The notes below the pieces were generated by a model, which was given only the letters and a program-made list of their open reading frames with translations, was not told the DNA's origin and made no database searches. The position numbers and the translations under genes were made by a program. Positions 716 through 63,155 of a stretch of DNA of 64,000 nucleotides are shown one piece after another (positions within the stretch are counted from its first letter, which is position 1; every line of letters starts with the position of its first letter). Origin of the DNA: Corynebacterium lizhenjunii (lineage in GTDB: Bacteria; Actinomycetota; Actinomycetes; Mycobacteriales; Mycobacteriaceae); the NCBI RefSeq assembly GCF_011038655.2, contig NZ_CP064954.1, positions 1,674,001 through 1,738,000 on the forward strand, written 5' to 3'.

Positions 716-733
716 GGGGGCATCGGCAAGCTC
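716..733 (+). repeat. Intergenic copy of iterated word GGGGGCATCGGCAAGCTC
   Basis: Full-length copy of a word whose 9-base core, GCATCGGCA, recurs about 24 times in this window. It sits just after the hairpin at the pilin-dnaE1 junction. See the finding on this word. Confidence 0.75.
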
Positions 734-781
734 TGGGCTCGGGCCCAGCGAACCAGGCCGGGCCCGGGGGCGCAACCAGAC

Positions 782-3700
782 CTAGCCCAGGATTCCTGGG
801 CCCATGGTGGCCTTCAGATCCCCCATAAGGTTGCCGGAACGCTCCACCCGCAGATGCTCGCCCAGGACCATCAGCGTCGACTCCTGCCCTGCCTGCAGGG
901 TGAGGTAGACGTCTGACTCGCCGTGATTGCGGGCCAAAACTCCCTTGAGCTTGGCAATGCTTTCTGGCGTGCACTGCTCCGTACGCATGAACAGACGCAG
1001 CGGCAGCCCGGCACCGCCGCCAGGGCCTAAATCAGGGACGCGAATATCGGAGCAAAACAGCGACATGCGCTCATCGCGGACCTTCACCGTTACCTTGGCA
1101 ATGATGATGTTATCTTCCACAATCTGCGGCGCCACCAGGGAATAGACCTGGTTAAAAACCAGGAGGTCCACCTGGGCACCATTGTGGTCTTCCATAGTGA
1201 CAATGGCCCAAGGCGAGCCGTCTTTCTTGGAATAGCGCCGGTCCACGCCGGAGATAATCCCACCAATTTCTAGCTCCTGGCCGTTGTGGACCTCGTTGGC
1301 CAAAATCTTTGGCAGCGGGGTGTTGGTCTGGGACTCCAAGGCCTCCTCGAAGCCGTCCAAGGGGTGGCCGGAGACATACAACCCCAGCATTTCACGCTCC
1401 AGGGCCAACTCATGCTTGCGCTCCCACGCCTGGTCCGGGACTTCGATGGCAAAGGCACTCGCCGCGCCACCCTCCTCAGCACCTAAGCCAGCAAAGAGGT
1501 CGAACTGGCCCTTATCCGCAGCCTTCTTGGTGGACTGTACGGAATCTACGGCATCTTCGTGAATGAGCATCAAGCCCTTGCGCGGGTGACCCAAATCATC
1601 AAAAGCCCCGGCCTTGATCAACGACTCCGTCACGCGCTTGCTGCAAGCCACCAGGTCAATCTTGTCCAGGTAATCAGAAAAGGACGCGAACTCTCCCTTG
1701 TCCTGGCGGGTCTTGACAATGGATTCCACCACTTCCGAACCCACGTTGCGGATGGCGCCCAAGCCGAAGCGAATGTCCTCACCAACGGCCTGGAAGTCCA
1801 GCTGGGACTCATTGACAGACGGCGGCAGCACCCGGATGCCCAGGTGGCGGCAGTCCGCCAGATAGATCGCAGACTTGTCCTTCTTATCGCCCACAGAGGT
1901 CAGCAAGGCGGCCATGTATTCCGGCGCATAGTAGGCCTTGAGGAAGGCAGTCCAGAAAGACACCAGGCCGTAGCCGGCAGCGTGGGACTTGTTAAATGCG
2001 TAGGACGCAAAGGGCTCAATGGTTCCCCACAACGCGTCCATGGCCGCCTTGGAATAGCCATTGGCCTGCATACCGGACCAGAATTTCTCATACTGCTGCG
2101 CCAGCACTTCCGGCTTCTTCTTACCCATGGCTTTGCGGAAGCCATCGGCCTCACCGGCGGTGTAGTTGGCCACCTTGCGCGAGATCTCCATGATCTGCTC
2201 CTGGTAGACAATCAGACCATACGTCTCCTCCAGGATCTCTTTGAGCGGCTCCTCAAGCTCAGGGTGGATAGGCACAATGGGCTTGCGGCCATTCTTGCGG
2301 TCCGCATAGTCCCAGTGGGCATTCACACCCATCGGCCCGGGGCGGTAGAGCGCCAGGGAGGCCACGATGTCCTTAAAGCCCGTGGGCTTCATGCGCTTGA
2401 GCAGCTCCTGCATACCACCGGAGTCCAGCTGGAACACGCCCAGGGTATCCCCGCGCGAGAGCAACTCATAGACCTTGGACACCTGCGGGTCATCGGCGTG
2501 CAATTCCTCTAGGTTGAGGTCCTCGCCCCGGTTGCGCTTGATATTGGCCAGGGCGTCGCCGATCACCGTCAGGTTGCGCAGGCCCAAAAAGTCCATCTTC
2601 AGCAAGCCAATGGCCTCGCAGGCCGGGTAGTCCCAGCCGGTGATGTAGGCGCCATCGGCAGGCCTCTTCCACATGGGGATGTGCTCCATCAACGGCACAG
2701 AGGCCATAATCACCGCGCACGCATGCACGCCAGCCTGGCGCACCACGCCCTCCAAACCACGGGCGGTCTCATAAATCCGCTTAACATCCGGGTCCGTCTC
2801 AATCAGTTGGCGCACCTCCGTGGCCTCCGAGTATCGCGGATGCTCCGGGTCGGTGATCCCGGACAGGGGAATGTCCTTAGCCATAATCGCCGGCGGCAAG
2901 GCGCCATTAATACGGTCTGCCATCTGGAAACCCGGCTGGCCATAGTTCACCTTCGCGGAGTCCTTAATGGCCTGCTTGGTCTTGACCGTACCGAAGGTGA
3001 TCACCTGCGCTACTTTGTCTTCGCCCCAGCGCTGGGCGGCATAGGTAATCATCTCCCCGCGGCGGCGATCATCGAAGTCGATATCAATATCGGGCGCGGA
3101 GGGACGCTCCGGATTAAGGAAGCGCTCAAACAGCAGGCCATGCTCAATGGGATCAATGTTGGTGATGGTCAGCGCATAGGCCACCAGGGCACCAGCTGCC
3201 GAGCCACGACCCGGGCCCACCCAAATCCCAATCGAGCGGGCGTGCTTAATCAGCTCCGCCACAATCAGGAAGTAGGAGGGGTAGCCCTTCATATCAATAA
3301 CGTCAATTTCATACTTGGCGCGGTCGATATACTCCTGCGGCACCTCCTTGCCCTGGAAGCGGTCCTGCAGCCCCTCCATCACCTGATGGGTCAGCCACGT
3401 GGTGGGCGTGTGCCCCTCCGGCACATCCGCAATGGGCATGCGGTCATGGGTATGTTCTTCCCATATCTCCCCGTAGTCTTGGACACGCTCGGCAATCCAT
3501 AAGGTGTTATCGCAGCCATCTGGGACCATGTCATCCCACAGCTCGCGCATCTGCTGCGCGGACTTGATGTAGTAGCCGGTGCCATCGAACTTGAAACGGT
3601 CCTGGTCCATCAGCGTCTTGCCGGTCTGCACGCACAGCATGGCCTCATGCGCCTGCGCCTGGGACTCCAACACGTAGTGACAGTCATTAGTTACCAGCGG

Positions 3701-4419: not shown

Positions 4420-5298
4420 ATGTTCTTTACCGTTGCTGCTTATGTGCTGTGGGGCCTGTTCCCGGCTTTCTTTCCGCTGCTCGATGCCGCCAGCCCCCTA
4501 GAAATCGTGGCCCACCGCGTGCTGTGGACCGCCGTGTTTGTCACCGGCTACCTGGTCTTTTCTGGTAGCTGGCGCGAGCTGGCCGCCCTGGATCGACGCT
4601 CCTGGGGTTGGCTGGCAGCAGCAGGGTTCTTTGTGACCATCAATTGGGGCACCTATGTGCTCACCGTTAACTCAGGCCATGTTGCCGATGCCTCTTTGGG
4701 CTACTACATCAACCCCTTGCTCTCCGTAGCCCTGGGAATGATCTTCCTCAAAGAGCGCCTGCGCCCCTGGCAGCTAGCCGCCGTGCTTATTGCCACTGCG
4801 GCCGTTGCCTACCTGACCTTCTTTACCGGCCAGGCGCCCTACTTGTCGCTAGCAATTGCGATGAGCTTTGGCATCTACGGGCTGCTGAAGAAGAAAATCT
4901 CCATTTCTGCGGCTGGCTCTGTGGCGGCAGAAACTCTGGTGATGCTCCCCTTCGCCTTGATCTATCTCACCTGGCTAGAACTGCGCGGAGAATCAACGTT
5001 CTACCACCTGGGTGCTAGCCACTCCCTGCTGCTGATTGCCTCTGGCATTGTCACCGCCACCCCCTTGTTGCTCTTTGCCCGGGGTGCGCGCGAGCTACCG
5101 CTGGCCACGGTGGGCATGTTGCAATACATCACGCCATGCATGTTGTTGCTGTGGTCCGTCTTCATTACCCACGAGCACTTCTCTACTCACCGCTGGATAG
5201 GCTTTGGCATCATCTTTGTTGCTGTGACCATCTACCTGGCTGACTTAGCGCGCGCCGGAGCTCGCCGACGCCGCGCCCAGCACCACGCAGGCCCGTAA
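4420..5298 (+). CDS. rarD: RarD-type EamA/DMT transporter
   Basis: A 292-residue inner-membrane protein with about ten hydrophobic segments; it starts MFFTVAAYVLWGLFPAFF, typical of the RarD subgroup of drug/metabolite transporters. The motif around EIVAHRVLWT and the ERLRPWQ stretch after the fourth or fifth helix fit RarD. RarD proteins were named from chloramphenicol sensitivity, but the substrate is generally unknown. A purine-rich GAGGAG lies 15 bases before the ATG, which is far for a ribosome site. The C-terminal tail is basic (RRRRAQHH). Confidence 0.85.
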   Translation: MFFTVAAYVLWGLFPAFFPLLDAASPLEIVAHRVLWTAVFVTGYLVFSGSWRELAALDRRSWGWLAAAGFFVTINWGTYVLTVNSGHVADASLGYYINPLLSVALGMIFLKERLRPWQLAAVLIATAAVAYLTFFTGQAPYLSLAIAMSFGIYGLLKKKISISAAGSVAAETLVMLPFALIYLTWLELRGESTFYHLGASHSLLLIASGIVTATPLLLFARGARELPLATVGMLQYITPCMLLLWSVFITHEHFSTHRWIGFGIIFVAVTIYLADLARAGARRRRAQHHAGP

Positions 5299-5714: not shown

Positions 5715-6311
5715 TCAGCCGACCTGGGGGCGCACGGCGAAGTTGCCCCAGACGGCATCGGCAAGCCCAGGCTCCACCGCTGCCACCAAGGCATGCTTAG
5801 CCACCTGCTCCAACTGGGCGGGCGGGGCATAGACCACCACGGAGCTAATCCCCGGCGTTCCAGCACCGCCCATCGCCGCAGTCAGCCTCCCCAGTGCGGT
5901 GTCAAAGACCTCCGCGCGCTCGCGCCCGGCTACCGGCTCCGGCACGGGCACTGGGCCTGCGCCGCCCACCACCACAGCATTGACCCGCTGCAGCGGGCGC
6001 AGCGCTGCACTAGCCTGCTGCGCGTCTAGCGGATGGGCAAAAGTAACCAAGGCAAATCGCGACTGCGGATCACGCTGCTCTGTGCTGTCACGGGGTCCCG
6101 TGCTGTCTTGGCGCAACTGCTCCAACTGCCCGGCAGCAAAGTCCACATACTCTGCCCGGGTGCGCCCATCCGGGCCCAGCACATCGCCCTGGACGGGCAC
6201 CGTAGGCACCGGGCCCAGCCAACCCGCAATGGCCAACACCACCACGCCCGCTCCCACCAGCGCCACCCCCCGCCGGACGCGGTATTTCAACTCCGGCCGC
6301 GGGAAACTCAT
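5715..6311 (-). CDS. Membrane-anchored secreted protein, unknown function
   Basis: A 198-residue protein with a short basic N-terminus ([15 protein letters not shown]) and one hydrophobic segment (about 16-33), then a soluble domain that should lie outside the membrane. No catalytic motif is seen. The ATG at 6311 overlaps the end of rluD (stop at 6308) by 4 bases, so it is translationally coupled to rluD-lspA. Its 3' end carries a GCATCGGCA word (5755-5763). I do not recognise the family beyond a corynebacterial-type conserved hypothetical. Confidence 0.75.
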
Positions 6312-7234
6312 CCGCGCAACACGCCCAACGCATGCTCCAAATCCTGCGGATAAGGCGCCGTTATCTCAAATGGCTTTCCCGTCCCGGGGTGGATAAACCC
6401 CAGGTTCACCGCGTGGAGCCACTGACGGTTAAGCCCCAGCCGCTTGGCCAGTTTAGGGTCACACCCATACATCGGATCCCCCACGCACGGGTGCCCCGTG
6501 GCCGACATATGCACCCGAATCTGGTGTGTACGCCCGGTTTCTAGGTGGACTTCAAGCAAACTGGCCTCGCGGAACGCCTCCAGCAAGGTGTAATGGGTAA
6601 CGGCGTGCTTACCGCCATCAACCACGGCGAACTTCCACCCAGAAGAAGGGTGGCGCCCAATAGGGGCATCAATGGTGCCCACAATCGGATCCGGTAACCC
6701 CTGGACCACCGCGTGATAGGTCTTGGACACGCGCCGCTCTTTAAAAGCGTGCTTGAGCTGGGAGTAGGCGCGCTCGCTGGCAGCAACCACCATGACCCCG
6801 GAGGTGCCCACGTCCAAACGGTGCACAATGCCTTTGCGTTCGGTAGGCCCGGCATCGGCAAGCTGATAGCCCGCCGCGCGCAGACCCCCAATAACGGTGG
6901 CCCCCTCCCACCCTAAGGTGGGGTGGGCCGCCACGCCCACGGGCTTGTGCACGCAGATGATGTCCTCATCAGCGTGCAGGACATCCATGCCCTCTACCAA
7001 TTCTTCCTTGGGAACCAGGGGCTCTTCCGGCGCAGGCATGACCACATCGATCCACCCACCTGCGCTAAGCCGCTCCGCCTTTCCCACCGCAACACCGTCG
7101 ACCTCCACATCGCCGTCGTCGCAGGCCCTGGCGGCCTTGGCGCGGGAGATGCCCAGTAGCTTGGCCAAGGCGGCATCGGCCCGCATGCCTTCCAAACCCT
7201 CTGGAACCGGCAGCCTACGACTCTCCCTGACCAC
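6308..7234 (-). CDS. rluD: RluA-family 23S rRNA pseudouridine synthase
   Basis: Converts uridines in 23S rRNA to pseudouridine. An N-terminal S4-like RNA-binding segment ([22 protein letters not shown]) is followed by the catalytic domain with HRLDVGTSG, whose Asp is the family nucleophile, and the RTHQIRVH motif. The frame is open further upstream, but GTG at 7234 is preceded 6 bases away by AAAGGAGG and gives 308 residues, the family length. That start lies inside the end of lspA (20-base overlap), the usual lspA-rluD coupling. Which uridines it modifies cannot be read from sequence; the symbol is by family. Confidence 0.92.
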
Positions 7235-8827: not shown

Positions 8828-9410
8828 CGGGGGCATCGGCAGGTGCATCTTCTGCCGAGTCCCCGCCGGGAGCCTGGGCGGCAGTGGGCTGCGCGTTACA
8901 CATGGCCGGGATCTCCTCCGGGCTCACGGTGTTGGAGATCAGGGTGCACGCCCAGGATTGCGACAGCTTCCACTGGCCGTCTTCGTAGACAAACTCCACA
9001 TTCTCTGCGATCTGCGGCTCGGGGCGCTCCGGCAGGCTAAACTGCACCGTCGTTAGCAAAGAGTCCGGGGTAAAGCCCGGCACCACCGGGTCCACGACCT
9101 CGAAAGTAGCGCCAGATTCCGCCTTGGACGCAGCCATGGTGTCAAAGAGCTCCGGGGCAATCTCCCCACCCTGGACGGTCTGCGTCTTTTCTTCCAGCGA
9201 CGCCTCAGGGTCAGTGGCCTTAGCCAGGATCGCGTTGAGCTCAGCCGCCGTGGGCAAGGACTCCGGGGCGGTGGTGTCCCCGCCTGCCTGGGCAGAAGTA
9301 GGCGCGCTGGAGGTCGCGGACTCAGTCTTACCGTCCCCGCCAGAACACGCGGTCAGGGTCGTGGCAGCGGTCAGAGCCATCGCGGCCAGTGCCATCTTCG
9401 GGAAGTTCAC
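8820..9410 (-). CDS. MTB12-like secreted lipoprotein
   Basis: A 196-residue protein with signal peptide and lipobox (TLTAC), a Ser/Thr/Ala-rich linker, and a C-terminal domain resembling mycobacterial low-molecular-weight antigen MTB12: AELNAILAKATDP, VQGGEIAPELFD, then VEFVYEDGQWKLSQSWAC. The family function is unknown. The tail is rich in Ala, Pro and Asp. The 3' end holds a GGGGGCATCGGCAGG copy of the iterated word (8831-8842). The assignment comes from motif resemblance, not a search. Confidence 0.75.
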   Translation of the reverse strand: MNFPKMALAAMALTAATTLTACSGGDGKTESATSSAPTSAQAGGDTTAPESLPTAAELNAILAKATDPEASLEEKTQTVQGGEIAPELFDTMAASKAESGATFEVVDPVVPGFTPDSLLTTVQFSLPERPEPQIAENVEFVYEDGQWKLSQSWACTLISNTVSPEEIPAMCNAQPTAAQAPGGDSAEDAPADAPAN

Positions 9411-9584: not shown

Positions 9585-10487
9585 ATGACTACTTCCGCTC
9601 CTGCACCCACGGTCCTCATTAGCACCGGCGGGACCATCGCGTGTACCCAGGACGCCTCTGGGGCGTTGGTGCCCACGCTCACTGCAGCTGATCTGGCGGC
9701 CTACCTCCCGCAGGCCGATATTCGCGCCATCGATTATCGCCGCCTGGACTCCAGCGCCATCACCTTTGCGGATATCGATGGGCTTATCGCCCTGGTGGCG
9801 CAGGAGGCAGCTGCTGGCCCGGCGCGCATCATCATCACCCACGGCACGGATTCGCTAGAGGAGACTGCCTTGGCCTTGGCACTCTTCCACACCGGTGAGG
9901 TCCCGGTCATTCTCACCGGCGCACAGCGCAGCGCGGATGCCGCCGCCCCCGATGGCCCTGGCAACCTCGCTGATTGCCTGGACATCACCACCCCGGGGGT
10001 GTGGATTCGCTTTGGTGGGCGCACGGTGCCTGCCTGGGGTGCGCGCAAGCTGCACACCAGCGCCTTGGATGCTTTTGCCGCTGCCGATACCCCCGCACCC
10101 ACCGCCGTGGTGCCCCTGCCGGTGGCTGCCTTAGCCTCCACTAAGGTTGCGGTCATTTCCGCCTACCCGGGCGCAACGCGAGAGCTTGTCGATGCCGCCT
10201 GCGCCGCCGGCTACCAGGGCCTGGTCATCGAGGCCTTGGGCTCTGGAAACATGGGCCCCGACATGGGAGCCGGGGTTGCGGCCGCCTTGGAGCAGGGGGT
10301 ACGCGTGATTATTACCACCCGCGTGCCCGAGGGGGAGGTCTCCTTGGTCTATGGTGGCCAAGGCGGTGGCGCCACGCTTGCCGATGCCGGGGCCCTGGGC
10401 TCCGGCACCCTGCGCGCTGGCCAGTGCCGGGTGCTCCTGGCAGCAGCGCTGGCCACGGGCACTGATCCGGCGGCGTTATTGGGCTAG
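9585..10487 (+). CDS. ansA: L-asparaginase
   Basis: Hydrolyses asparagine to aspartate and ammonia. The 300-residue length fits a type I/II asparaginase. The first catalytic Thr lies in VLISTGGTIACT and the second in ITHGTDSLEETA; both motifs are complete. There is no signal peptide, so it is probably cytoplasmic. TACCCT lies 8 bases before the ATG and may be a -10 element of a near-leaderless mRNA. The 3' end contains CTTGCCGATGCC, a copy of the iterated word. Confidence 0.92.
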   Translation: MTTSAPAPTVLISTGGTIACTQDASGALVPTLTAADLAAYLPQADIRAIDYRRLDSSAITFADIDGLIALVAQEAAAGPARIIITHGTDSLEETALALALFHTGEVPVILTGAQRSADAAAPDGPGNLADCLDITTPGVWIRFGGRTVPAWGARKLHTSALDAFAAADTPAPTAVVPLPVAALASTKVAVISAYPGATRELVDAACAAGYQGLVIEALGSGNMGPDMGAGVAAALEQGVRVIITTRVPEGEVSLVYGGQGGGATLADAGALGSGTLRAGQCRVLLAAALATGTDPAALLG

Positions 10488-10503
10488 CGCTGGGACTGGT
10501 GGG

Positions 10504-11937: not shown

Positions 11938-11985
11938 CCTAAATCCTCCGCCGCCCTCACTCTTGCGCAGCAGCGCGTGCAGCGT

Positions 11986-12843: not shown

Positions 12844-12905
12844 AAAAGAAACCTTAGCCCACGGCCGGTTTGCGACCATGCGCCACGGCCGCCACAATCT
12901 ATTGC

Positions 12906-13556
12906 ATGCCCGCGAAAACCCCCGCCGCCACCCGCGCTTATGACTTGGTCAAACTGCGGATCCTCCACGGCGTTTATGCCGATACCACGTTGCTCTCCGA
13001 AGGCGACGTGGCCACAGAGCTGGGGCTCAGCCGCACCCCGGTGCGCGAAGCCTTTCTCCGCTTAGAGGTCGAGGGATTCCTCAAACTCTACCCCAAACGC
13101 GGAGCCCTGGTGGTGCCCATTCCCCCGGAGGGCATACGGGAAGTCTATGAGGCCCGCGAGCTCATCGAATCCCACAGCGCCCGGCACATCTGCGCCCAGG
13201 ACCAGGACTTTCGCGGGCAGGTCTGCGGGGAGCTCGAAGAACTCATCGGCGCGCAACTAGCCTGCCTGCGTGACGGCGACCTGCAAGAATACACCCGCTT
13301 GGATGCGGCGTTCCACCAGGTCATCATGGACCACGGAGGCAACAGTGTACTGGCCGCTGTGGGGCAGTCCTTAAGGGAGAAACAACAACGGTGCACCTCC
13401 ACGGCCATCGGCCGAAATCTGGATACGGCCTACCATTTTGTAGAGGGGCACCGTCGTATAGTCCTCACGCTACGGGCCGGCGATACCGCCGCCTACGCCC
13501 GCGAAATCCACCAACACCTGGCAGATTCGCAGGCCCAGCTTTCAGCCCAGCGCTAG
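12906..13556 (+). CDS. GntR/FadR-family transcriptional regulator
   Basis: An N-terminal winged helix ([31 protein letters not shown], roughly residues 28-58) with the canonical SRTPVREA recognition helix, followed by an FCD-type ligand-binding domain with conserved acidic and His residues ([21 protein letters not shown]). ATG 12906 gives 216 residues. Its position opposite an EamA exporter suggests it controls that gene in response to a small acid. The last 4 bases overlap the convergent ileS stop. Confidence 0.88.
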
Positions 13557-16500
13557 GCCTTCTCCCCGACCTTCTCCACGGTGGCAGTGACATCCTTGAG
13601 CACTGCATGCGTGGGGCCAGAGAGGGCATCGGCAGTGACGCGGAAGTCTGTGGCCAGGACCTCCGCAGCGATGTGGCTGGCGTGGCGCTGCGCCCACTCC
13701 TGGCGCGCTTGCGGCACGGACAGCTCGACACGGATGCGATCGGAAACCTCGAAACCAGATGCCTTACGGGCATCTTGCAGACCGCGGATCACATCCGCAG
13801 CCCAGCCTTCGGCCTCCAGCTCCTCGGTGACCTGGGTATCCAACACCACCAGGCCCGCCACCGTATTGCCCAAGTCCACCCGGGCAGTCGAGGCAGGATT
13901 GGCCGCCTGCAGACGCTCCGTGTACTCCTCAGGGCTAAGCGTGATGTCGCCATCGACTACCACCTGATCGCCGCGTCGCTGGTAATTGCCTGCCTTGAGG
14001 TTCTTAATCGCGCGCTGCACATCCTTGCCCAGACGCGGCCCGGCCACCTTAGCGTTGCACACCACCTCGAAGGTACCCACCGAATCCACATCATCGGTCA
14101 ACAGCACCTCCTTGACGTTGACCTCATCGCGGATGATATCTGCAAACTCCGCCAGGCGCTGCGAGTCAGCCAAGGCCACAGTCAGCTTGGGCAGCGGCAG
14201 GCGGTTACGCAGCTTATTGGCCTTGCGTACTGACGATGCCGCCGAGGCCACCGCGCGGGTGGCATCCATGGCCTCCACCAGGGCGGCATCGGCAGGATAG
14301 TCTGCCGCCTGCGGGAAGCGAGCCAGGTGAACGGAACGCTTACCGGTCAGGCCCCGGTAGATAACCTCCGCCACGTGCGGCAGCAGCGGAGCCACCACGC
14401 GGGCAACGGTCTCCAGCACCGTGTAGAGCGTGTTGAAGGCCTCCGGGTGCGCATCCTCGCCCGCCCAGAAACGCTCGCGAGAACGGCGCACATACCAGTT
14501 AGTCAGGGCGTCTGCGAACAGGCGCACCTCCTCCGTGGCCGTGGCAATATCCGTATCTGCCAGCGCGGCATCCACCGCCGCCACCAAGTCATGGGTCTTA
14601 GCCAAGATATAGCGATCCAGCACATTAGTAGAGCTGACATCAAAGGAGGCCTCGCGCCCAGCGTAGAGCTGCAAGAAGGTGTAGGCATTCCAGATAGGCA
14701 AGATGGCCTGACGCACGCCCTCGCGGATCCCCTGCTCGGTGACAATGAGGTTGCCACCGCGCAGGATCGGCGAAGACATCAAGAACCAGCGCATGGCATC
14801 AGAGCCATCGCGATCAAAGACCTCATTGACGTTGGGGTAATTGCCCTTGGACTTCGACATCTTCTGGCCATCATTGCCCAGCACGATGCCGTGGGCGACC
14901 ACCTTCTTGTACGCCGGGCGGTCAAAAAGCGCCGTAGAGAGCACGTGCATGACGTAGAACCAGCCGCGGGTCTGGCCGGAATACTCCACAATGAAGTCCG
15001 ACGGCGAGTGGGTCTCAAACCACTCCTTGTTCTCAAAGGGGTAGTGCTTCTGTGCAAAAGGCATAGAGCCGGACTCGAACCAGCAGTCCAACACGTCTGG
15101 CACGCGCACCATCTTCGACTTGCCCGTCGGATCATCGGGGTTCGGGCGGGTGAGCTCGTCGATGTACGGGCGGTGCAAGCTGGTGGGCCGCACGCCGAAG
15201 TCGCGCTCGAGTTCATCCAGGGACCCGTAGACGTCCACACGGGGGTACTCCGGGTTATCGGACACCCAAGCCGGGATGGGCGCACCCCAATAGCGGGTGC
15301 GGGAGATGTTCCAGTCGCGCGCGCCTTCAAGCCACTTGCCAAATTGGCCATCGCGGATATGCGCCGGCAACCACTCGATCTCCTCACGGTTAAGCTGGAC
15401 CATCCGGTCGCGGAAAGCAGAGACCTTGACAAACCACGCCGGCAGCGCCATGTAGATCAGCGGCTCGCCGGAGCGCCAGGAGTGCGGGTAAGAGTGCTCG
15501 ATGGTCACGTGGCGCACCACGCGGCCGGCCTCCTTGAGGTCTTTGATGATGTTCTTGTTGGCATCAAAGACCAGCTGCCCCTGGTATGGCGGAACCTGCG
15601 CGGTGAACTCGCCGTTTTCATCGACCGGGATAACCAGCTCAATGTCATAGGCATTGCAGGAGTTCATATCGTCTTCACCAAAGGCCGGGGCCTGGTGGAC
15701 CACACCGGTACCGTCTTCCGTGGTGACATAGTCCGCCTCAATGACCTGGAAGCCATTGCGCAGCTGCGGGAAGAAGTCAAAGATTGGCTGGTAGCTAAAG
15801 CCGGCTAGCTGGGAGCCGGTGAAGGTTTGGAGTACTTCGACCTCCCCTAACTCCTTGGCTAACGTGCCCACCAGGGCCTGGGCCATGATGAACGTGCGCC
15901 CCTCAAAGTCGCCCGCGGTGGCGCGGATGAGCGCATAGTCCACCTCTGGGTGCACGGCTAGCGCAGAGTTAGACGGCAGGGTCCAGGGCGTGGTGGTCCA
16001 GGCCAGGAAAGCCGCCTGGGCCAGCTCCGGGTGCTGGGCCAGCGTGGATTCTGCGTTGGTGCCTGGCAGGGCGCCAGTGACCGGGAAGGTCACTGTCAGG
16101 GTCGGATCCTGGCGCATCTTATACGAGTCATCCAGGCGGGTTTCCTGATTGGACAGCGACGTGTGCTCCGCCCAGGAGTAAGGCAACACCCGGAAACCTT
16201 GGTAGATAAGACCCTTGTCATAGAGTTCCTTGAAGGCCCACATGACAGACTCCATGAAGTTGATGTCCATCGTCTTGTAGCCGTTGTCAAAGTCCACCCA
16301 GCGGGCCTGGCGGTTAACGTAGGCCTCCCACTCGTGGGCGTACTCCATCACCGACTTTGCGCAATAATCATTGAACTTCTCTAGGCCCATCTCCTCGATC
16401 TGGCCCTTGTCCGTGATTCCCAGCTGCTTTTCTGCCTCCAGCTCCGCTGGCAAGCCGTGGGTGTCCCAACCGAATACGCGCGGCACATAGTTGCCCGCCA

Positions 16501-19155: not shown

Positions 19156-19234
19156 GCTTGCCGATGCCCCCTCCCCGCCCCGTTGCTCCCCTGCAGGCGG
19201 GGCAGACGGGTGGCCGGAAGGGGCATCGGCAAGC
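19156..19234. repeat. Inverted pair of iterated word between sepF and yggT
   Basis: GCTTGCCGATGCCCC (19156-19170) and its perfect complement GGGGCATCGGCAAGC (19220-19234) face each other across 49 bases. They could fold as a 15-bp stem in the sepF-yggT message or its antisense. Both arms are copies of the word spread through this window. Confidence 0.85.
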
Positions 19235-19251
19235 TCACAGCAAGAAGGGCT

Positions 19252-26258: not shown

Positions 26259-26352
26259 GCCCTCTAGGCTAGCAGTAGACCCCTGAAGCACGGCCTAGCC
26301 CCACCACCCAAGTCGCTAAATCTAGCTGGGTCCACCGTCTTCTCCCCTCTTA

Positions 26353-26380
26353 GCTTGCCGATGCCCTAACCTGCCGATGC
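26353..26380 (-). repeat. Two adjacent copies of iterated word upstream of murG
   Basis: AGCTTGCCGATGC (26353-26364 region) and CTGCCGATGCCCCC (from 26371), 16 bases apart and in the same orientation, in the leader between murG and the DnaA-box cluster. Confidence 0.75.
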
Positions 26381-43623: not shown

Positions 43624-45207
43624 ATGAGTATCACTTCCACCCGCTCCACAGCCCGCTCCACAGCCCACAGCGCAGCATCCAAGCTGCCTTCCTGGTTCTT
43701 TAACCCCCTGATCGTTGGCACGCTTGCCTCCGTGGTGCTTTTCTGCGCGTCTTTTGGTGGCGGGGCCACCCGCAACCGCGGCGGCACGCTGGAAGCCTTG
43801 GGATTGTCCTTTATTTCCTTTGGCCACGGCCGCAATGTGTCCATGTGGCTGTATTGGGTGGGAATCTTTGGCCTGGTGTGGGCCTGGGTACTGGCGGGAC
43901 GCACGCTTGCCCTACCTGCATGGCGCGCAAAGGCCCGCACGGCAAACAGTGAGCAAACGGGGGCATCGGCAAGCTCTGCACACGCCTTTGCGCAGATGCG
44001 AAGGGCCTTGGTGTGGTGGCTTGTCCCGCTGCTGGGGGCAGCTCCCCTGGCCTCCCGGGACGTCTACTCCTACCTGATGCAAGGCGCCATGCTGCGCGAT
44101 GGCTTCGACCCCTACACCCAGGGCGCAGCCGCGAATCCCGGGCCGTTTTTGCTAGAAGTTTCCCATGATTGGCGCAACACCACCACCCCTTATGGTCCAC
44201 TGCATCTGTGGACTGGGGAGCTGATTACCAGACTGGTCGGCGATAATGTGGCGCTGGGAATTCTCGCATACAAGATGGTCTCAGTCCTAGGCTTTGCCGC
44301 GATTGCCTACGGCGTGGTGCTCATTGCGCGCTCGTTGGGAACCTCACCGACCTTCGCCCTATGGCTGGGCGTGGCTAACCCGGTCATGATCATCCACATG
44401 GTGGGCGGAATGCATAACGAGTCCGTCATGGTGGGGCTGGTGTCTCTGGGCCTAGCTTTGGTGCTGCGACGACAGGCGGTGCTGGGCATCGGCCTGATTG
44501 CTCTGGCGACATCGCTAAAGGTCACAGCGTTTTTGGCCATGCCGTTTGTGTTGTGGATTATCTGCCATCACTACAGTCCGCGCCCGCAATCTTCCTGGGT
44601 GCGACGCAGTGGTGTTTTCCTAGGTGGTGGGCTGCTAATCCTCGCGGAAACCATTGCCGTTATCGCGGCGGTGACCTGGGCCTCCGGGTCGTCTTGGGGC
44701 TGGCTATCTGAGATTACCGGCAACTCCAAGGTCATCAACCCCCTGGCCGGGCCCACGCTGCTCAGCGACGTACTCACTCCCCTGCTGCAGCTCTTTAGCA
44801 CCGACATCACCTATAACGCGGTGCTCTCCGTTACCCGCACCGTGTCCATGGCCATCATGCTGCTGGGACTGGTAGCGGTGTGGTGCGTATCCTTCCGCTC
44901 CATCCGGACCGCGCTCTACGGGGCTGCGGGGGCCTACCAGGTGGCATTTGTGTTTAACTCGGTGACCTTGCCGTGGTACTACGCCTCCGTGCTTTCCCTG
45001 GTAGGCGCGGCCCAGCCACCGCTGTGGGTGCTCAAGATTGCCACCGGAGCGTCCATCGTGGTTGCAACAGGCTTTTCCGGCGACGGCAACCATCAGTTCT
45101 ACACCTGGTGGTGGATACTCACCGCCGTGGCCGTGGCCTGGTGGGCTACCCAGTGGACTTATGCTGAGGCTACCGAGTCCACGGAGGCTACCCAAATCAG
45201 AATTTAG
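43624..45207 (+). CDS. mptB: Alpha-1,6-mannosyltransferase MptB
   Basis: GT-C membrane mannosyltransferase that uses polyprenyl-phosphate mannose to build the lipomannan backbone. 527 residues with about 12-13 membrane segments; the external loop SRDVYSYLMQGAMLRDGFDPY carries the family Asp, and GGMHNESVMVGL is also conserved. The 3' end lies in the duplicated target of the IS, but the reading frame is complete and ends TQIRI. It contains GGGGGCATCGGCAAGCTC (43961-43976). Confidence 0.9.
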   Translation: MSITSTRSTARSTAHSAASKLPSWFFNPLIVGTLASVVLFCASFGGGATRNRGGTLEALGLSFISFGHGRNVSMWLYWVGIFGLVWAWVLAGRTLALPAWRAKARTANSEQTGASASSAHAFAQMRRALVWWLVPLLGAAPLASRDVYSYLMQGAMLRDGFDPYTQGAAANPGPFLLEVSHDWRNTTTPYGPLHLWTGELITRLVGDNVALGILAYKMVSVLGFAAIAYGVVLIARSLGTSPTFALWLGVANPVMIIHMVGGMHNESVMVGLVSLGLALVLRRQAVLGIGLIALATSLKVTAFLAMPFVLWIICHHYSPRPQSSWVRRSGVFLGGGLLILAETIAVIAAVTWASGSSWGWLSEITGNSKVINPLAGPTLLSDVLTPLLQLFSTDITYNAVLSVTRTVSMAIMLLGLVAVWCVSFRSIRTALYGAAGAYQVAFVFNSVTLPWYYASVLSLVGAAQPPLWVLKIATGASIVVATGFSGDGNHQFYTWWWILTAVAVAWWATQWTYAEATESTEATQIRI

Positions 45208-47551: not shown

Positions 47552-48937
47552 ATGACTTCTTTGGCCGTGGGCGATATTATCGATAACCGCTACCGCATTG
47601 ATAGACCAGTGGCGCGCGGCGGCATGTCAACGGTGTACCGCTGCGTGGACTTGCGCCTGGGGCGCGCCGTGGCCGCCAAGGTCCTCCATGATCACTTAAG
47701 CGCTGACCCGGTCTTTGTGCAACGCTTCCGCCGCGAGGCCCGCGCGATGGCCCAGCTAAGCCACCCCCACCTGGTGGGCATCCAGGATTTTAGCGCGGAT
47801 GCGCAGCCAATGTTCCTCATCATGGACCTCATCACCGGCGGCACCTTGCGCGAGTTGCTGGCAGAACGCGGCCCCATGCCCCCGCACGCCACCGCCGCAG
47901 TTTTGCGGCAGGTCCTCACTGGATTGGAGGCCGTCCACGCCCGCGGGCTTATCCACCGCGACATCAAGCCGGACAATATCCTTATCGATGGGGACCACTC
48001 CATCAAGCTCGGCGATTTTGGTCTGGTGCGCGCTACCGCCAGCGGAGACACCACCACCAGCAATACCATCGTGGGCACCGTGTCCTACCTGGCTCCGGAG
48101 CAAGTCACCGGGGAGGAGCTCACCCCGGCAACGGATGTCTACTCCCTCGGCGTGGTCGCCTTTGAGCTGCTCACCGGAACGGTCCCCTTCCGGGGCGATA
48201 CCCCGCTCAATCATGCTCTGGCGCGGCTCAGCGAGGATGTTCCGGCGCCGTCGTCGCGTATTGCCGGTGTGCCGCCGCTGTTCGATGAGCTCGTGGCCAA
48301 TGCTTGTGCCCGGGACCCGCAGGCTCGGTTTGCCGATGCCGCCGAGTTCCACGCCGCCGTTGCCGACGTCGCCGCTGAGCTGGACTTGCCCGAGTTCCTG
48401 GTGCCCGTCCCCCGCGATTCTGCCGCTGGGCGCACCGCAGCGCAGCCCACGGACTTCAGCGGCCTCCGGGCTGATGACTTCGCTGCGACGTCGGTGCTCA
48501 GCACCGACTCGTCGGCACAAACGCTGGTTTCTCCCCCGGCTGAAACGCGCCCGACTGAGCCACGCCCACCTGAGCCAAGACCAGAGACTGCGCTATTGCC
48601 GCCCTATGAGCCTGCCGTAGAGACGCCTATAGCGCCCGCACAGTCCCCCCGTGAGTACTCCCCAGCGCAGGCGGGCTATAGCCCAGCAGCGGGGCCCAGT
48701 CCGTCGCTCAACCCACCGCACAGTCCAGAGCACATCCCCGAACTCCGCCCGGCATCAAATCCGGTAGCGGCACATTCCGCGCAGGAAGAGCCGCTGCCGA
48801 AGGTGCTAAGCAACCGCTCGCCACTACTGCTCATCGCGTGGATCCTCGCGGTCACAGCGCTGTGCACGGCATTGGCGGTCGGCGGCTGGTGGTTTGGCTC
48901 CGGCAATTATGAGATGTTGCCGCAGCTGTGGCGTTAG
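47552..48937 (+). CDS. pknL: Serine/threonine protein kinase PknL
   Basis: Hanks-type kinase of 461 residues. Gly-rich loop VARGGMSTVYR, Lys in AAKVL, catalytic loop IHRDIKPDNIL, DFG in LGDFGLVR, APEQ and the DVYSLGVVAFELLTG helix are all present. A Pro/Glu/Thr-rich juxtamembrane region follows, then one membrane segment (PLLLIAWILAVTALCTALA) and a short external tail. There are no PASTA domains, which separates it from PknB. In mycobacteria it acts on the adjacent Rv2175c protein. Confidence 0.93.
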   Translation: MTSLAVGDIIDNRYRIDRPVARGGMSTVYRCVDLRLGRAVAAKVLHDHLSADPVFVQRFRREARAMAQLSHPHLVGIQDFSADAQPMFLIMDLITGGTLRELLAERGPMPPHATAAVLRQVLTGLEAVHARGLIHRDIKPDNILIDGDHSIKLGDFGLVRATASGDTTTSNTIVGTVSYLAPEQVTGEELTPATDVYSLGVVAFELLTGTVPFRGDTPLNHALARLSEDVPAPSSRIAGVPPLFDELVANACARDPQARFADAAEFHAAVADVAAELDLPEFLVPVPRDSAAGRTAAQPTDFSGLRADDFAATSVLSTDSSAQTLVSPPAETRPTEPRPPEPRPETALLPPYEPAVETPIAPAQSPREYSPAQAGYSPAAGPSPSLNPPHSPEHIPELRPASNPVAAHSAQEEPLPKVLSNRSPLLLIAWILAVTALCTALAVGGWWFGSGNYEMLPQLWR

Positions 48938-50411
<1,474 letters not shown>

Positions 50412-50921: not shown

Positions 50922-50940
50922 GGTTTCCTAGCTTACTTAG

Positions 50941-50955
50941 CTTGCCGATGCCCCT
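50941..50955 (-). repeat. Intergenic copy of iterated word
   Basis: CTTGCCGATGCCCCT between the exoribonuclease and plsC genes (a 50-base spacer), preceded by AG to complete the 13-base form. Confidence 0.7.
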
Positions 50956-51759: not shown

Positions 51760-52689
51760 TTAATGTAGCGCCAGGTGCGCCACGCCGATCATACCCGCCG
51801 CAGAGCCCAGCTCCGCGCAAGCCACACGCGCCACCGGGCGGTGTCCGGCGCCCACCACGTTGCTTTCTAAGACCTCGCGGGCGCCATCGAGGAATAAGTC
51901 GGCATCCGCAGCCACGCCGCCACCCAGCACAATCAGCTCCGGGTCAATAATATCCGCCACCATGGAGAGACCCTGGCCCAGCCACTGCGCGAAGTCCGCC
52001 ATGACGGCCAGGGCCAAAGGGTCACCGCTGCGCGCAGCCTGGGTGATGGCCTCGCCGGCGGCATCGGCAGGCAAAGCACTCGGATATTGGCCGCGTAGCT
52101 GACGGCAGGTGTCTTCCAACGCCGTGCCAGAAGCGTAACGCTCCAGGCAGCCGCGCTTTCCGCACGAACAGGCCCGCCCCTGCGGGACCACCACCAGGTG
52201 GCCAAACTCCGGAGCTGTACCAAACGCACCCCGGTAGATCTCCCCATGGGCAAAAATGGTGGCGCCAATACCGGTGCCCACCGCAAAAAACACCCAGTCC
52301 TGGGTGCCACGGCCGGCCCCGAAACGCCACTCACCCCACGCCGCCGCATTCGCGTCGTGTTCCAACGTCACGTCCAGGCCCAGGCGCTCAGACAAGATGG
52401 CCTGCACAGGAGCATCACGCCAAGGCAAGTGCGGCGCAAAGCGCACAGTGGTGCACTCCGGGTCCAAAAATCCCGCTACCGCTAGGCCCACAGCGGAAAT
52501 CTCATGACGTTGCCGCAGCTGCTGGACCATTCCCACAATGGCATCTTCCAACTCCGCAGCGGTAGCCGGGGTGGGCACCGCCAGCGAGTCTATAATCTCC
52601 CCCTCCTGCGTGACTACCCCAGCCCGCAGATTGGTGCCCCCAATGTCAAAGCCAACTGAACGCACCGGGCGGGCGGAGAAACTGTGCAT
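51760..52689 (-). CDS. glk: ROK-family glucokinase
   Basis: Phosphorylates glucose. The 309-residue ROK protein has the ATP motif GFDIGGTNLRAGVV, catalytic Asp in EHDANAAAWGEW, and the zinc-binding CSCGKRGCLE. The position between pimB and plsC matches glk in C. glutamicum. No polyphosphate-kinase motif is obvious, so ATP is the expected donor. A GCATCGGCA copy is at 52061. Confidence 0.9.
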   Translation of the reverse strand: MHSFSARPVRSVGFDIGGTNLRAGVVTQEGEIIDSLAVPTPATAAELEDAIVGMVQQLRQRHEISAVGLAVAGFLDPECTTVRFAPHLPWRDAPVQAILSERLGLDVTLEHDANAAAWGEWRFGAGRGTQDWVFFAVGTGIGATIFAHGEIYRGAFGTAPEFGHLVVVPQGRACSCGKRGCLERYASGTALEDTCRQLRGQYPSALPADAAGEAITQAARSGDPLALAVMADFAQWLGQGLSMVADIIDPELIVLGGGVAADADLFLDGAREVLESNVVGAGHRPVARVACAELGSAAGMIGVAHLALH

Positions 52690-56033: not shown

Positions 56034-57656
56034 TTAGACGCGTCCGTTGTCCTGGTCGTCACGCCAGTTAGCCTCATTGAGACGGCGGAACATCTCGGCC
56101 TCTTCGGCCTGGTTCTCAGCGTGAATCTCGTGCACCTTATGCATCAGAGCTTCATCGTCCGGGGAGAAGATGCCCTGAGTCTCAGAGTCAGCCAGACCAA
56201 GATGGTTGAGCTGCTTCGGAACCACAGCACCGGCGTAAGGCAGCGGCACAGGGTGACCGTGCTCGTCCACAGGACCCAGCGGCTGGTGGATTTCAATGAA
56301 GGCACCATTCGGCAGCTGCTTAATCACACCGGTCTCGATACCGTGCTCCAGCACCTCGCGGTCGGAGCGCTGCAGGCCAACGCAGATCTTGTAGGTCAGG
56401 AAGTAAGCGATCGGCGGCACAACAATCAGACCGATACGGCCAACCCAGGTCATGGCGTTCAGCGAGATCTGGAAGAAGTGGGCCACGTGGTCGTTACCAC
56501 CGGAAATGGTAACCAGCACGAAGAACGAGATGGCCATTGCGCCGATACCGGAGCGAACCGGAACATCGCGCGGACGCTGCAGCAAGTTGTGGTGGGCGTC
56601 GTCGCCGGTGACCTTCTTCTCGATGAAGGGGTAGGCCATCAACAGGACCACCATGGCGCCTGCAACCAACATCACCCAGAAAGCACCCGGGATGGTGTAG
56701 CCGAAGATGTAGAGCTCCCATGCGGGCATGACACGTGCCAGGCCGTCCGTCCACAGCATGTAGATATCCGGTTGAGAACCAGCGGAGACCTGGGACGGGT
56801 TGTAGGGACCAAGCAGCCAGATGGCGTTGATAGTCAGCAGACCAGACATCAGAGCCAGAACACCGGCCGTCATCAAGCCCATACCAATGGCCTTGGTGGC
56901 GAACACCGGCATAATGCGAACGCCTACAACGTTGTTCTCTGCACGACCGGGGCCGGGGAACTGAGTGTGCTTCTGGAACCACACGATGAGAACGTGAGCA
57001 GCAATCAGGGCCAGGATGATGCCCGGGATAACCAACACGTGCAGGATGTAGAAACGGTCCAGCATCAGGTCAGACGGGAAGTCGCCGTCGAAAATGGCCC
57101 AGTGCAACCAGGTACCGATCAGCGGCAGACCGAGGATGATGGCGGACATAATGCGCAGACCCACGCCGGAGAGCAGGTCGTCCGGCAGGGAGTAACCCAG
57201 GAAGCCTTCAATCATACCCAGCAGGATGAGGGTGCAGCCGATGATCCAGTTTGCCTCACGCGGACGACGGAAAGCGCCGGTGAAGAAGATGCGCAGCATG
57301 TGCGCCACCATGGACATCATGAACAGCAGGGCAGCCCAGTGGTGCATCTGGCGAACGAACAGACCACCGCGAACCTCGAAGGACAAGTCCAATGCCGATG
57401 CGTAGGCGGAGGACATCTCCACGCCGTTGAGCGGGGTGTAGGCACCGTCGTAGATCACCTTAGTGATAGACGGGTCGAAGAAGAGTGCCAGGTAGATACC
57501 GGTCAGCAGCAGGATGATGAAGCTGTACAGCGCCATCTCACCCAGCATGAAGGACCAGTGAGTCGGAAATACCTTGTTCAGCTGCGGGCGCAGAGCACCA
57601 GCGGCGCTGAAACGGCTGTCGACATTATTGCCGATCTTTGCGAGTTTAGTGCTCAT
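56034..57656 (-). CDS. qcrB: Cytochrome b subunit of bc1 complex
   Basis: Membrane core of menaquinol:cytochrome c reductase, 540 residues. Heme-ligand helices include [27 protein letters not shown] and a second His pair, [49 protein letters not shown] is the Qo region. The long C-terminal extension of about 120 residues (after [12 protein letters not shown]) is typical of actinobacteria. Its ATG overlaps the qcrA stop as TAATG. Confidence 0.96.
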
Positions 57657-61568: not shown

Positions 61569-61598
61569 AATTATTCTCCTTGAATCCTTGAGGTCCCT

Positions 61599-62687
61599 TT
61601 ATGCGGCTTCTTCTTCAACGAAGTTCTGGCCGTCGCGAGTATCGCGCAGGGAGTTGAACGGCTGAGTGGTGACTGCGTACGGATCCTCACCAATGGCAGC
61701 CAGCGCCTCAGAGTTCGGGGCGTCCGGGTTAGCCAAACGGAACTGCATGTAGTCAGTGAACTTCTCCGGGGAGACGACACGAATCTCGAAGTTCATCATC
61801 GAGTGGTAGGTACCGCACATTTCCGCACAACGGCCGACAAAGGCACCTTCCTGCTCAATCTTCTCGATCTGGAAGCGGCGCTCCTGCTGGTTGTTCTCCG
61901 GGTGAGCGTAGACGTCGCGCTTAAACAGGAACTCCGGCACCCAGAAGGCGTGGGAGACGTCGCCGGAAGCGAGACGGAACTCGATCGCGGTCTGCGAAGG
62001 CAGCACCATCACAGGGATTTCCTCCGTGGAGCCCACGGTCTCAATCTTGTTGTAGTTCAAGTAGGAAAGGTCACCCATGGACTTACCGTGAATCGGGTTC
62101 GGGTACTTCATATCCTCCGGGTCAATGGCAGACTTCTCAGCCAGAGCGTGACGCTCCTCGTCGCGACCATCGTAGTCAGCACCAGTCGGGGACAGCTCGC
62201 CCGCTACGTTGGCGTAGCCGAACTTCCAGTTCCACTGGTAAGCGGTGACATCGACAGTGACCTTCGGGTCCTTATCCAGGGCCACTACCTTCTGCTGCGC
62301 CTGCACCGTAAAGAAGAACAAGCCCATGATGATGATGACCGGAACAACGGTCAGGCAAATTTCGAGCGGCACGTTGTACTGCAGCTGCTTGGGGAATTCA
62401 CCCTTACCTTCCTTCTTGGCACGCTTTGCGCTCCAGCGGAAGATAGCAGTGAGGAACAGGCCCCACATCACGAAACCGATGAACCAGGCAACAACCCAGG
62501 TCCAAATCCAGAAGTTATACATCGACTCCGCCTCAGGGGTAATACCCTTAGGCCAGCCGAAACCGAGGATGTTTTCCACAGCCTCGGGTGCCTGCACATC
62601 ACAGGCGGCTAGGGCGGTTGCACCTAGAGCAATAACGCCAGCTAGGCCCGCCTTGCGGGCAAAGTTGCGTTGCTTTCGCTGTCCCAC
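61599..62687 (-). CDS. ctaC: Cytochrome c oxidase subunit II
   Basis: A 362-residue protein with a lipobox (ALAAC), two membrane helices and an external cupredoxin domain. The CuA site is CAEMCGTYHSMM, with the other His in VSHAFWVPEF. A charged insert (PTGADYDGRDEERHALAEK) precedes the CuA region, as in corynebacterial CtaC, and may help dock QcrC. GTG 62687 gives the lipoprotein signal. ctaD (subunit I) is not in this window. Confidence 0.95.
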   Translation of the reverse strand: MGQRKQRNFARKAGLAGVIALGATALAACDVQAPEAVENILGFGWPKGITPEAESMYNFWIWTWVVAWFIGFVMWGLFLTAIFRWSAKRAKKEGKGEFPKQLQYNVPLEICLTVVPVIIIMGLFFFTVQAQQKVVALDKDPKVTVDVTAYQWNWKFGYANVAGELSPTGADYDGRDEERHALAEKSAIDPEDMKYPNPIHGKSMGDLSYLNYNKIETVGSTEEIPVMVLPSQTAIEFRLASGDVSHAFWVPEFLFKRDVYAHPENNQQERRFQIEKIEQEGAFVGRCAEMCGTYHSMMNFEIRVVSPEKFTDYMQFRLANPDAPNSEALAAIGEDPYAVTTQPFNSLRDTRDGQNFVEEEAA

Positions 62688-63155
62688 GTGTGTTCTGCCT
62701 TTCTGTCCACACAAACTTCTCGAATACTCTCAGAGCATTCCTATCCATTCAGGATAGTCCATCCAGCAAGTGGCCCCACCCCGCCCCCAGAGGCAGAATC
62801 GGGCCAACTAGCACGATGGGCTGTAGTCCGTAGGGGATATTACAGTTCAACCTTGGAATTTACCCATTTGCGGCCTCCAAGCCATTAACATCACCGCTGG
62901 TACGCGTGTCTCAATTCACACGGAAAACTGTCAATACCATCCGAAAGTTTGAACCCCGCTAGGGGTCTACAGTGGCACTTGTGCCCCACCCGGCCACCAG
63001 GAACCCCGCAAGGAGATAGACGGCCTGCTGGGGAGGGCATCGGCAAGCTCAGCCCAAACTTGCCCCGCGCCGACGTTACACATTGCCAGCCAAGCGCCGT
63101 AAGGTGGGAGGGCAGACAAAAGCACCGCAACGCCACAGTCAAGGAGATTTACTAG
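62688..63155. other. 468-base gap between ctaC and ltsA
   Basis: Divergent promoter region. It holds an 18-base palindrome CGTGT-N8-ACACG (62905-62922) that partly resembles the CRP-like GlxR site, and a GGGCATCGGCAAGCTC word (63035-63050). A clear -10/-35 pair was not found for either gene. AAGGAG lies 9 bases before the ltsA start. Confidence 0.55.

Follow-up and report, generated by a model that had tools for sequence, protein, structure and literature searches.

The word iterated in the genome of Corynebacterium lizhenjunii is this species' spelling of C(G/A)TCG-NN-AAGC, a word found genus-wide that probably serves as a DNA uptake (self-recognition) sequence. The spaced word is abundant, strand-neutral and free of codon or protein constraint, it is kept by point-level constraint, and it occurs in species dialects, one shift between which was carried out site by site.

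An iterated word in the C. lizhenjunii chromosome

In the window, i.e. the whole 64,000-nt stretch of DNA that was analyzed, GCATCGGCA has 25 exact matches on the two strands together, compared to a mean of 1.09 and a maximum of 5 in 100 dinucleotide shuffles, close to the count in the initial annotation (24 or so copies, with about one predicted). Words overlapping GCATCGGCA head the window's rankings of 8-, 9- and 10-mers under Markov models of orders 2, 3 and 4, with GGCATCGGCA observed 24 times where 0.33, 0.45 and 1.16 copies are expected, respectively. The 13-mer GCATCGGCAAGCT is contained in 8 of the 25 copies and was found, to within one base, at all eight positions at which it had been annotated.

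By simple gene calls, 18 of the window copies are genic and 7 lie across 5 intergenic gaps, as had been claimed (many genes and at least five gaps). Intergenic copies of GCATCGGCAAGCT are found at 720..732, 19223..19235 and 63037..63049 on the forward strand and at 26352..26364 and 50939..50951 on the reverse strand. The reverse-strand 9-mer at 19159..19167, also intergenic, forms an inverted pair with the copy at 19223, and that at 26372..26380 (reverse, intergenic) stands in tandem with the copy at 26352; among word copies there are some tandem pairs and a few inverted ones. Genic copies of the 13-mer lie at 6852..6864 (forward; CGTCGGCAAGC is the aligned CGTCG-dialect sequence at this site), 42518..42530 (reverse) and 43963..43975 (forward). 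The other genic copies of GCATCGGCA are at 5755..5763, 8833..8841, 13626..13634, 14286..14294, 23659..23667, 30023..30031, 36322..36330 and 52061..52069 on the forward strand, and at 4683..4691, 10379..10387, 30726..30734, 34275..34283, 43365..43373, 48331..48339 and 57393..57401 on the reverse strand.

The enrichment extends well beyond the window. The whole genome holds 244 copies of GCATCGGCAAGCT (121 forward and 123 reverse) and no copy of its reversed control. In a genome sample of 20 evenly spaced 20-kb stretches, 400 kb in all and about 15% of the chromosome, we counted 153 copies of the 9-mer (77 and 76 by strand), where 7.7 copies are expected at Markov order 3 and 29 at order 5, so that the counts exceed the third-order expectation in the sample as in the window. 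Conserved sequence around the copies ends by about 18 bases. Spacings below 100 bp are about twofold more frequent than at random (0.115 vs. 0.053).

In the window and the sample together, 146 of 178 copies lie within genes. The initial annotation had placed them in different reading frames, which is correct, but there is a strong frame preference, with Ala-Asp-Ala being read on the opposite strand at 101 of the 146 genic copies. The excess survives a codon-aware null model nonetheless: 143 coding copies are observed where shuffles of synonymous codons give 16.3 (sd 3.8), and the same null yields 41 vs. 3.0 and 165 vs. 16.1 in two other sets. Word density is about equal in coding and intergenic DNA in two of the three sets. 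Hence, the proposal of a genome-wide, DNA-level word of the uptake type, as opposed to a coding bias, is supported by the third-order Markov, codon-aware and out-of-window tests, which the initial annotation had named as able to refute it; uptake is the probable role. Two of the roles proposed at the same time fared less well. With 146 of 178 copies being genic, terminator arms can be a secondary role at most, and a polar chromosome signal is disfavoured by the replichore split, since 63 of the 121 forward copies of GCATCGGCAAGCT fall in one half. The GC skew of the chromosome changes sign near 1.3–1.4 Mb.

A gapped word with dialects across Corynebacterium

The true unit is gapped and reads C(G/A)TCG-NN-AAGC, spelled GCATCGGCAAGCT in C. 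lizhenjunii; a fully conserved 13-mer is ruled out by the free NN in relatives. Across 36 loci (485 kb), a spacer of 2 gives 192 matches and every other spacer from 0 to 10 gives 4–25. The word is asymmetric, gapped and non-palindromic. It characterizes Corynebacterium as a genus, most species bearing hundreds to nearly two thousand copies: as read from the table of counts, about 169 of 242 genomes have at least 250 copies of CGTCGNNAAGC each, with a maximum of 1,964. The frequency is about one per 2 kb or so, and forward and reverse counts are near equal genus-wide. Among 185 genomes representing 30 further genera of the family, not one is comparably enriched. Many Corynebacterium species are word-poor.

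Species spellings differ, with CGTCG and CATCG dialects sharing a common core, and one genome (G012) is marked by an unrelated word, TGACGNCGCGG, in 539 copies. The counts had at first suggested that the CATCG form spread horizontally in a patchy manner; this was rejected, as most of the apparent negatives carry the second spelling instead. In a DnaE tree with named species, two CATCG lineages each adjoin CGTCG ones; the single CATCG clade seen in TadA and ComEC trees came from a sample without close CGTCG relatives and disagrees with the DnaE tree. No strong substitute word was found in nine Tad-positive word-poor genomes (40 kb each). G043 and G206 have candidate other words.

The word is depleted on mobile elements and largely confined to the chromosome. 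Seven plasmids, four of which were examined for 50 kb only, carry 15 copies of C(G/A)TCGNNAAGC in 277.5 kb, compared to about 127 from host counts, and several of them encode methyltransferases. Three corynephages have 1 copy in 123.6 kb, host density being measured for the host of EmiRose only; a DnaE-based phage search returned no corynephage.

Retention of copies and a site-by-site dialect shift

Copies arise and persist through point change rather than insertion. In close pairs the differences between copies are point changes and gaps amount to 0–1%, and in pairs at 85–90% identity the word is retained at 0.81, compared to 0.36 for permuted words (pairwise rows not independent). Between distant species (75–80% nucleotide identity), word positions turn over, 15% being identical vs. 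18% for the control. The comparison of C. lizhenjunii with C. phoceense comprises 3 aligned sites only. In C. macginleyi, the word is kept at 10 of 24 sites and is eroding like control words.

Between C. tuberculostearicum and a relative with the CATCG spelling, the identical G-to-A change is found at 28 of 41 orthologous sites. In the sampled regions, the eight remaining word positions are intact at 35 of the 41, and 28 of these 35 have A for G. Permuted controls are intact at 38 of 121 and 30 of 123 sites, with A in 0 and 1, respectively. The change is located at a CpG; permuted words that start with CpG show it at 1 of 30 otherwise intact sites, whereas the word shows it at 28 of 35. Of 43 converted coding sites, 37 are synonymous (rows partly redundant).

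Competence and Tad genes

C. lizhenjunii has a comEA-comEC-holA cluster. Among 41 genomes, ComEC was found in 40 and T2SSE/TadA in all, and TadA profile matches occur in 236 of 242 Corynebacterium genomes. The word-poor C. spheniscorum, C. marambiense, C. otitidis and C. uropygiale also have comEA, comEC and tad genes, so the presence of ComEA, ComEC and TadA does not discriminate word-rich genomes and was rejected as a marker of them. TadA profile scores are low in 33 genomes, with 1 more lacking a match, all word-poor; G014, G075 and G095 score low yet are word-rich, and the tadA genes of the latter two look split or broken. Loss of tad as the explanation of word loss was discarded, since the low scorers among named genomes have full-length, divergent TadA and form a single clade; we read the low scores as divergence, not loss.

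Discussion

Under the uptake reading, a surface DNA-binding protein of the competence machine (Tad/Flp pilus, ComEA and ComEC) would favour word-bearing DNA, and recombination of the preferentially imported DNA would create and keep copies where the protein sequence tolerates them. If the preference of the receptor were to drift, the entire set of copies would follow. We lean, with somewhat less assurance, towards the fuller proposal of a genus-wide uptake language with a Gram-positive reader of the Tad/ComEA type, which would be the first in Actinomycetota, having undergone at least two independent CGTCG-to-CATCG changes, one of them site by site, and in one species a swap to an unrelated word. 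Weighing against an uptake role are the erosion of the word in C. macginleyi, the machinery in word-poor species and the lack of strong substitute words in those searched; methylation-driven mutation could also contribute, the G-to-A shift being at a CpG. The literature searched contained no account of naturally transformed corynebacteria.

Among other explanations, the word may be the binding site, some thousand times repeated, of a nucleoid-associated or chromosome-organising protein. A non-palindromic motif with a fixed spacer, a density of roughly one copy every 2 kb on both strands, and residence on the chromosome rather than on plasmids or phages would all suit such a protein; we nevertheless consider it unlikely, given the absence of polarity, the turnover of positions between distant species and the difficulty that a cellular protein would have in going through a site-by-site respelling when some thousand sites depend on it. 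A methylation or repair bias at a methyltransferase site, comparable to HIP1, the highly iterated short palindrome of cyanobacteria, would turn the CGTCG-to-CATCG shift into deamination of a methylated C. The altered base does lie within a CpG, converted coding sites are mostly synonymous and plasmids encode methyltransferases, but the word is non-palindromic with a free NN, CpG-starting permuted words hardly change, and mutation alone leaves the intactness of 35 of 41 sites unexplained when controls stand at 24–31%. We regard this bias as quite unlikely, and a methylation-linked role explains less than the uptake reading does.

Recombination hotspots of the Chi type and FtsK-orienting signals of the KOPS type are also short, over-represented and non-palindromic. 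Such signals are strand-skewed along replichores, and the strand neutrality of the copies in each half, together with the close forward and reverse counts genus-wide, makes this role very improbable. It is harder still to credit a dispersed mobile repeat (REP, MITE or insertion remnant): the tandem and inverted pairs and the excess of short spacings would fit one, but close pairs show point differences with hardly any gaps, most copies are genic and conservation does not pass about 18 bases. Lastly, codon usage, a protein motif (Ala-Asp-Ala or Gly-Ile-Gly-Lys) or ordinary composition could draw on the single frame common to 101 of 146 genic copies; it is refuted by the synonymous-codon shuffles (16 vs. 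143), and with intergenic density near that of coding DNA in two of three sets and one spacer length only, we leave it practically no chance.

To our knowledge, uptake sequences have been described only from the Gram-negative Neisseriaceae and Pasteurellaceae, and we know of none in Actinomycetota. ComP is reportedly the receptor of the Neisseriaceae DUS. According to PMC3630211, DUS are short, non-palindromic, high-copy and family-limited, with phylogenetically ordered dialects around a common core, and PMC7371117 describes their distribution on mobile elements as atypical. The Corynebacterium word is likewise non-palindromic, taxon-limited and present in many copies and core-sharing dialects. 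Unlike DUS, it is bipartite with a free NN and belongs to a different phylum and cell envelope; furthermore, its dialect shift is visible site by site and the genus includes many word-poor species. In Pasteurellaceae, the core of the uptake signal sequence, or USS, is present some thousand times; it sits within an extended consensus that is longer and softer, and it has two main spellings. The Corynebacterium core word resembles it in abundance, in its extended consensus and in having two main spellings, but the two are unrelated, with no common sequence, and the USS machinery is a Gram-negative T4P. The USS is treated in PMC12616744. HIP1 is similarly iterated in genes and gaps, but it is a palindromic octamer, whereas our word is asymmetric and gapped. 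REP, BIME and MITE repeats are longer, inserted and mainly intergenic, unlike this short, mostly genic word with gaps of 0–1%. Closer in lineage, the actinobacterium Micrococcus luteus undergoes natural transformation that depends on a Tad/Flp pilus (PMC4322843), and its tad, comEA and comEC genes are the set also found across Corynebacterium; the term ‘uptake sequence’ is absent from the main text of that paper, which apparently claims no sequence preference.

Uptake sequences are a classic case of self recognition at the DNA level. If the reading is true, natural transformation would probably be common throughout Corynebacterium, whose members include major bacteria of skin, airways, food and industry, and the spelling of the word would set which species exchange genes. 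The word would also offer a handle for DNA delivery and a flag for foreign DNA in Corynebacterium genomes, and its dialects would be among the few known traces of how a recognition code is rewritten site by site. Should it not be an uptake word, a respelled word in a thousand copies throughout a genus would be at least equally surprising.

Copies of the word in the C. lizhenjunii chromosome

The 9-mer GCATCGGCA occurs 25 times in the window (strands summed), compared with a mean of 1.09 in 100 shuffles, and words overlapping it head the lists of over-represented 8-, 9- and 10-mers at Markov orders 2-4. By simple gene calls, 18 copies lie in genes and 7 in five gaps; eight copies extend to the 13-mer GCATCGGCAAGCT. 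The window is C1:1674001-1738000 of a genome in a single contig of 2.61 Mb, whose nearest named relative by DnaE, with its own genome left out of the search, is C. phoceense (91% identical). The 13-mer is found 244 times in the chromosome (121 forward, 123 reverse), its reversed control 0 times. In 400 kb of spaced stretches, 153 copies of the 9-mer were seen where 7.7 are expected at order 3 and 29 at order 5; the extended consensus is roughly GGGGGCATCGGCA(A/G)(G/A)CTC. The extended word shows two 3′ endings in this genome: AGCT (45) and GACT (18) are the most frequent sequences 3′ of GGCATCGGCA among the copies of the window and stretches L001-L020.

GC skew is positive in the stretches lying between 1 and 1.30 Mb and negative from 1.43 Mb on; the first gene appears, from its C-terminal sequence, to be dnaA. 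On this map, the first half of the chromosome holds 63 of the 121 forward 13-mer copies; therefore, the word has no replichore polarity.

A gapped unit with two spellings

In stretches from several relatives, the strongest pattern is CATCG-NN-AAGC, in which the two central bases are free. The spacer length is strict: in 485 kb from 36 named word-rich loci, a spacer of 2 gives 192 copies, while spacers of 0, 1 and 3-10 give 4-25. Word-poor loci (11 loci, 149 kb) have 2 copies. The position that best tolerates a single-base substitution is the second A of AAGC, and a G two bases upstream is common (77%).

Of the 242 Corynebacterium genomes, 14 have at least 100 copies of the CATCG form, CATCGNNAAGCT (range 104-397; reversed controls 0-18 per genome). 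Most sampled genomes that had looked negative for this form contain CGTCG-NN-AAGC instead, which reaches at least 250 copies in about 169 of the 242 (count read from the table; maximum 1,964), with near-equal strands and reversed controls of about 20 to 120 per genome. One genome, G024, is rich in both spellings (397 CATCGNNAAGCT, 352 CGTCGNNAAGC) and is possibly intermediate between them. No comparable enrichment is seen in 30 other genera of the family, represented by 185 of the 201 genomes surveyed; their highest count is 373 in 4.5 Mb, where the control gives 143.

Copies of C(G/A)TCGNNAAGC were counted in 50 named genomes. Word-rich species include C. xerosis (1973), C. lactis (1669), C. 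vitaeruminis (1657), C. glaucum (1599), C. striatum (1262), C. aurimucosum (1259), C. silvaticum (1162), C. tuberculostearicum (1039 and 1009), C. phoceense (694) and C. flavescens (629). The word-poor ones are C. falsenii (60), C. dentalis (76), C. spheniscorum (86), C. suicordis (93), C. sp. ACRQK (98), C. glyciniphilum (106), C. jeikeium (107), C. variabile (143), C. otitidis (161), C. uropygiale (172) and C. marambiense (183), and two genomes are intermediate (277 and 284). These 11 word-poor rows require 4 changes on a quickly built DnaE tree, in which seven of them form one clade. In that clade (C. jeikeium, C. variabile, C. glyciniphilum, C. falsenii, C. suicordis, C. dentalis and ACRQK), TadA is full-length but divergent and ComEA is lower-scoring.

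Other words were found in single genomes. G012 (loci L136, L137), which has no CGTCGNNAAGC enrichment, carries 539 copies (270 + 269; control 10) of the unrelated TGACGNCGCGG, present at most 87 times in every other genome of the 242. The palindrome-like TCATCGATGA of G043 (L138, L139; 10 in 40 kb vs. 0.3) is possibly another spelling, or something else. CCTCGNCGACG of G206 (L154, L155; 16 in 40 kb vs. 0.8), a genome of 72% GC, may be codon-driven, and TACCCGGACGG of the word-rich G053 (L123, L107; 14-16 in 32 kb) may be a local protein repeat.

Coding constraint does not account for the word

In the window and the 400 kb sample, 146 of 178 copies are genic, and 101 of these 146 lie in the frame that gives Ala-Asp-Ala on the opposite strand. 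A coding origin, through codon usage or a protein motif, is nevertheless ruled out by synonymous-codon shuffles: shuffling per gene leaves 16.3 copies (sd 3.8, maximum 26 over 60 runs) vs. 143 real genic copies. The corresponding figures are 3.0 vs. 41 in genome G010 and 16.1 vs. 165 in the 36 named loci. Intergenic and coding densities are alike in two sets (0.40 vs. 0.38 and 0.38 vs. 0.40 per kb); in G010, a small set with 3 intergenic copies, the density is lower between genes (0.35 vs. 0.65). The 13-mer copies are more often intergenic (17 of 46).

Retention of copies between relatives

Retention was measured by aligning 52 DnaE loci pairwise, which yields non-independent rows. CGTCGNNAAGC is unchanged at a fraction of 0.92 of sites at 94-97.5% identity, 0.87 at 90-94% and 0.81 at 85-90%, vs. 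0.72, 0.49 and 0.36, respectively, for permuted words, and gaps at its sites amount to 0-1% in these bins. Thus, constraint at the level of point changes keeps copies in place between close relatives. At 80-85% identity the values are 0.34 vs. 0.24, and at 75-80% they are 0.15 vs. 0.18, with gaps at 25% vs. 9%. So over longer times the positions of copies turn over, while copy numbers remain high.

A shift from CGTCG to CATCG

C. macginleyi (G101) and genome G001 use CATCG, and C. tuberculostearicum uses CGTCG. The shift was examined in one genome pair, C. tuberculostearicum FDAARGOS_993 (G105, assigned, like G101, by identical TadA coordinates) vs. G001, plus the C. macginleyi DnaE locus (81.2% identity). 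The other eight positions are intact in 35 of 41 alignable CGTCGNNAAGC sites of G105, and these read CATCG in 28 cases and CGTCG in 7. Permuted words with G at the same place are intact in 38 of 121, with A in 0, and CpG-starting ones in 30 of 123, with A in 1. In the reverse comparison, 34 of 49 are intact and 28 of them carry G. The corresponding counts of changed sites in a wider set, which is partly redundant, are 43/67 and 40/63. Among the 64 genic sites of this set, the change would be silent at 45, of which 37 changed, and would alter an amino acid at 19; at these, 6 changed, each time from Val to Ile. The 3 intergenic sites are all unchanged.

On the DnaE tree, C. phoceense and C. lizhenjunii adjoin CGTCG species, as does C. 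macginleyi; hence CATCG arose at least twice by parsimony. Of the 21 CGTCG sites that could be aligned in the C. phoceense/C. lizhenjunii lineage, just 4 are spelled CATCG; most have turned over. C. macginleyi (L102, L299, L300) retains 10 of 24 G001 sites, a share similar to that of permuted words (32 of 86), and 10 of its 11 sites are also present in G001. The word thus seems to be eroding in C. macginleyi.

Plasmids and phages

Seven Corynebacterium plasmids (277.5 kb in all; four of them truncated at 50 kb) hold 11 CGTCG and 4 CATCG forms, whereas host-species densities predict about 127 copies. Without pCha1, whose host count derives from a doubtfully labelled strain, the prediction is about 97 and the plasmids hold 13. 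On pTP10 (L279), five of seven copies lie within 9777-13119, where the surrounding genes, mshC for example, are normally chromosomal; a segment of chromosomal origin should show this. Among the corynephage records, which include about 18 others, the three examined (BFK20, phi674 and EmiRose) have 1 copy in 123.6 kb, with a host count measured for EmiRose alone.

Competence genes and a proposed mechanism

ComEC was detected in 40 of 41 genomes and T2SSE/TadA in all 41. TadA profile matches cover 236 of the 242 genomes, the six misses being 53-95% complete. All 50 named genomes have TadA (split or partial in two), and ComEA is clear in 48. ComEA of C. phoceense (L115) reads as a fragment of 121 residues whose sequence includes an ambiguous base, so that either the assembly is at fault or the gene may be broken; the sole ComEA match of MAG SUG2093 resembles another helix-hairpin-helix protein. 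In C. lizhenjunii, comEA (SLBB and HHH_3), comEC (PF03772) and a gene read as holA are consecutive. Since comEA, comEC and tad genes also occur in word-poor genomes, their presence does not discriminate; they fit an uptake model rather than prove it.

We found no report of a Corynebacterium uptake sequence or of natural transformation in the PMC articles searched, a collection with few subscription journals or preprints. Published work describes eight DUS dialects ordered by phylogeny (PMC3630211), mobile elements detected through atypical DUS distribution (PMC7371117) and tad-dependent transformation in Micrococcus luteus (PMC4322843).

By analogy with DUS and USS, the word most likely works through an uptake-type mechanism, a reading that we hold with reasonable though not high confidence. 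A surface receptor would prefer word-bearing DNA, imported self DNA would recombine into the chromosome, and copies would build up where proteins tolerate them, above all at silent Asp codons. The shift fits a receptor whose preference drifted from G to A; the copies would then have followed, less readily at sites where the encoded protein would be altered.
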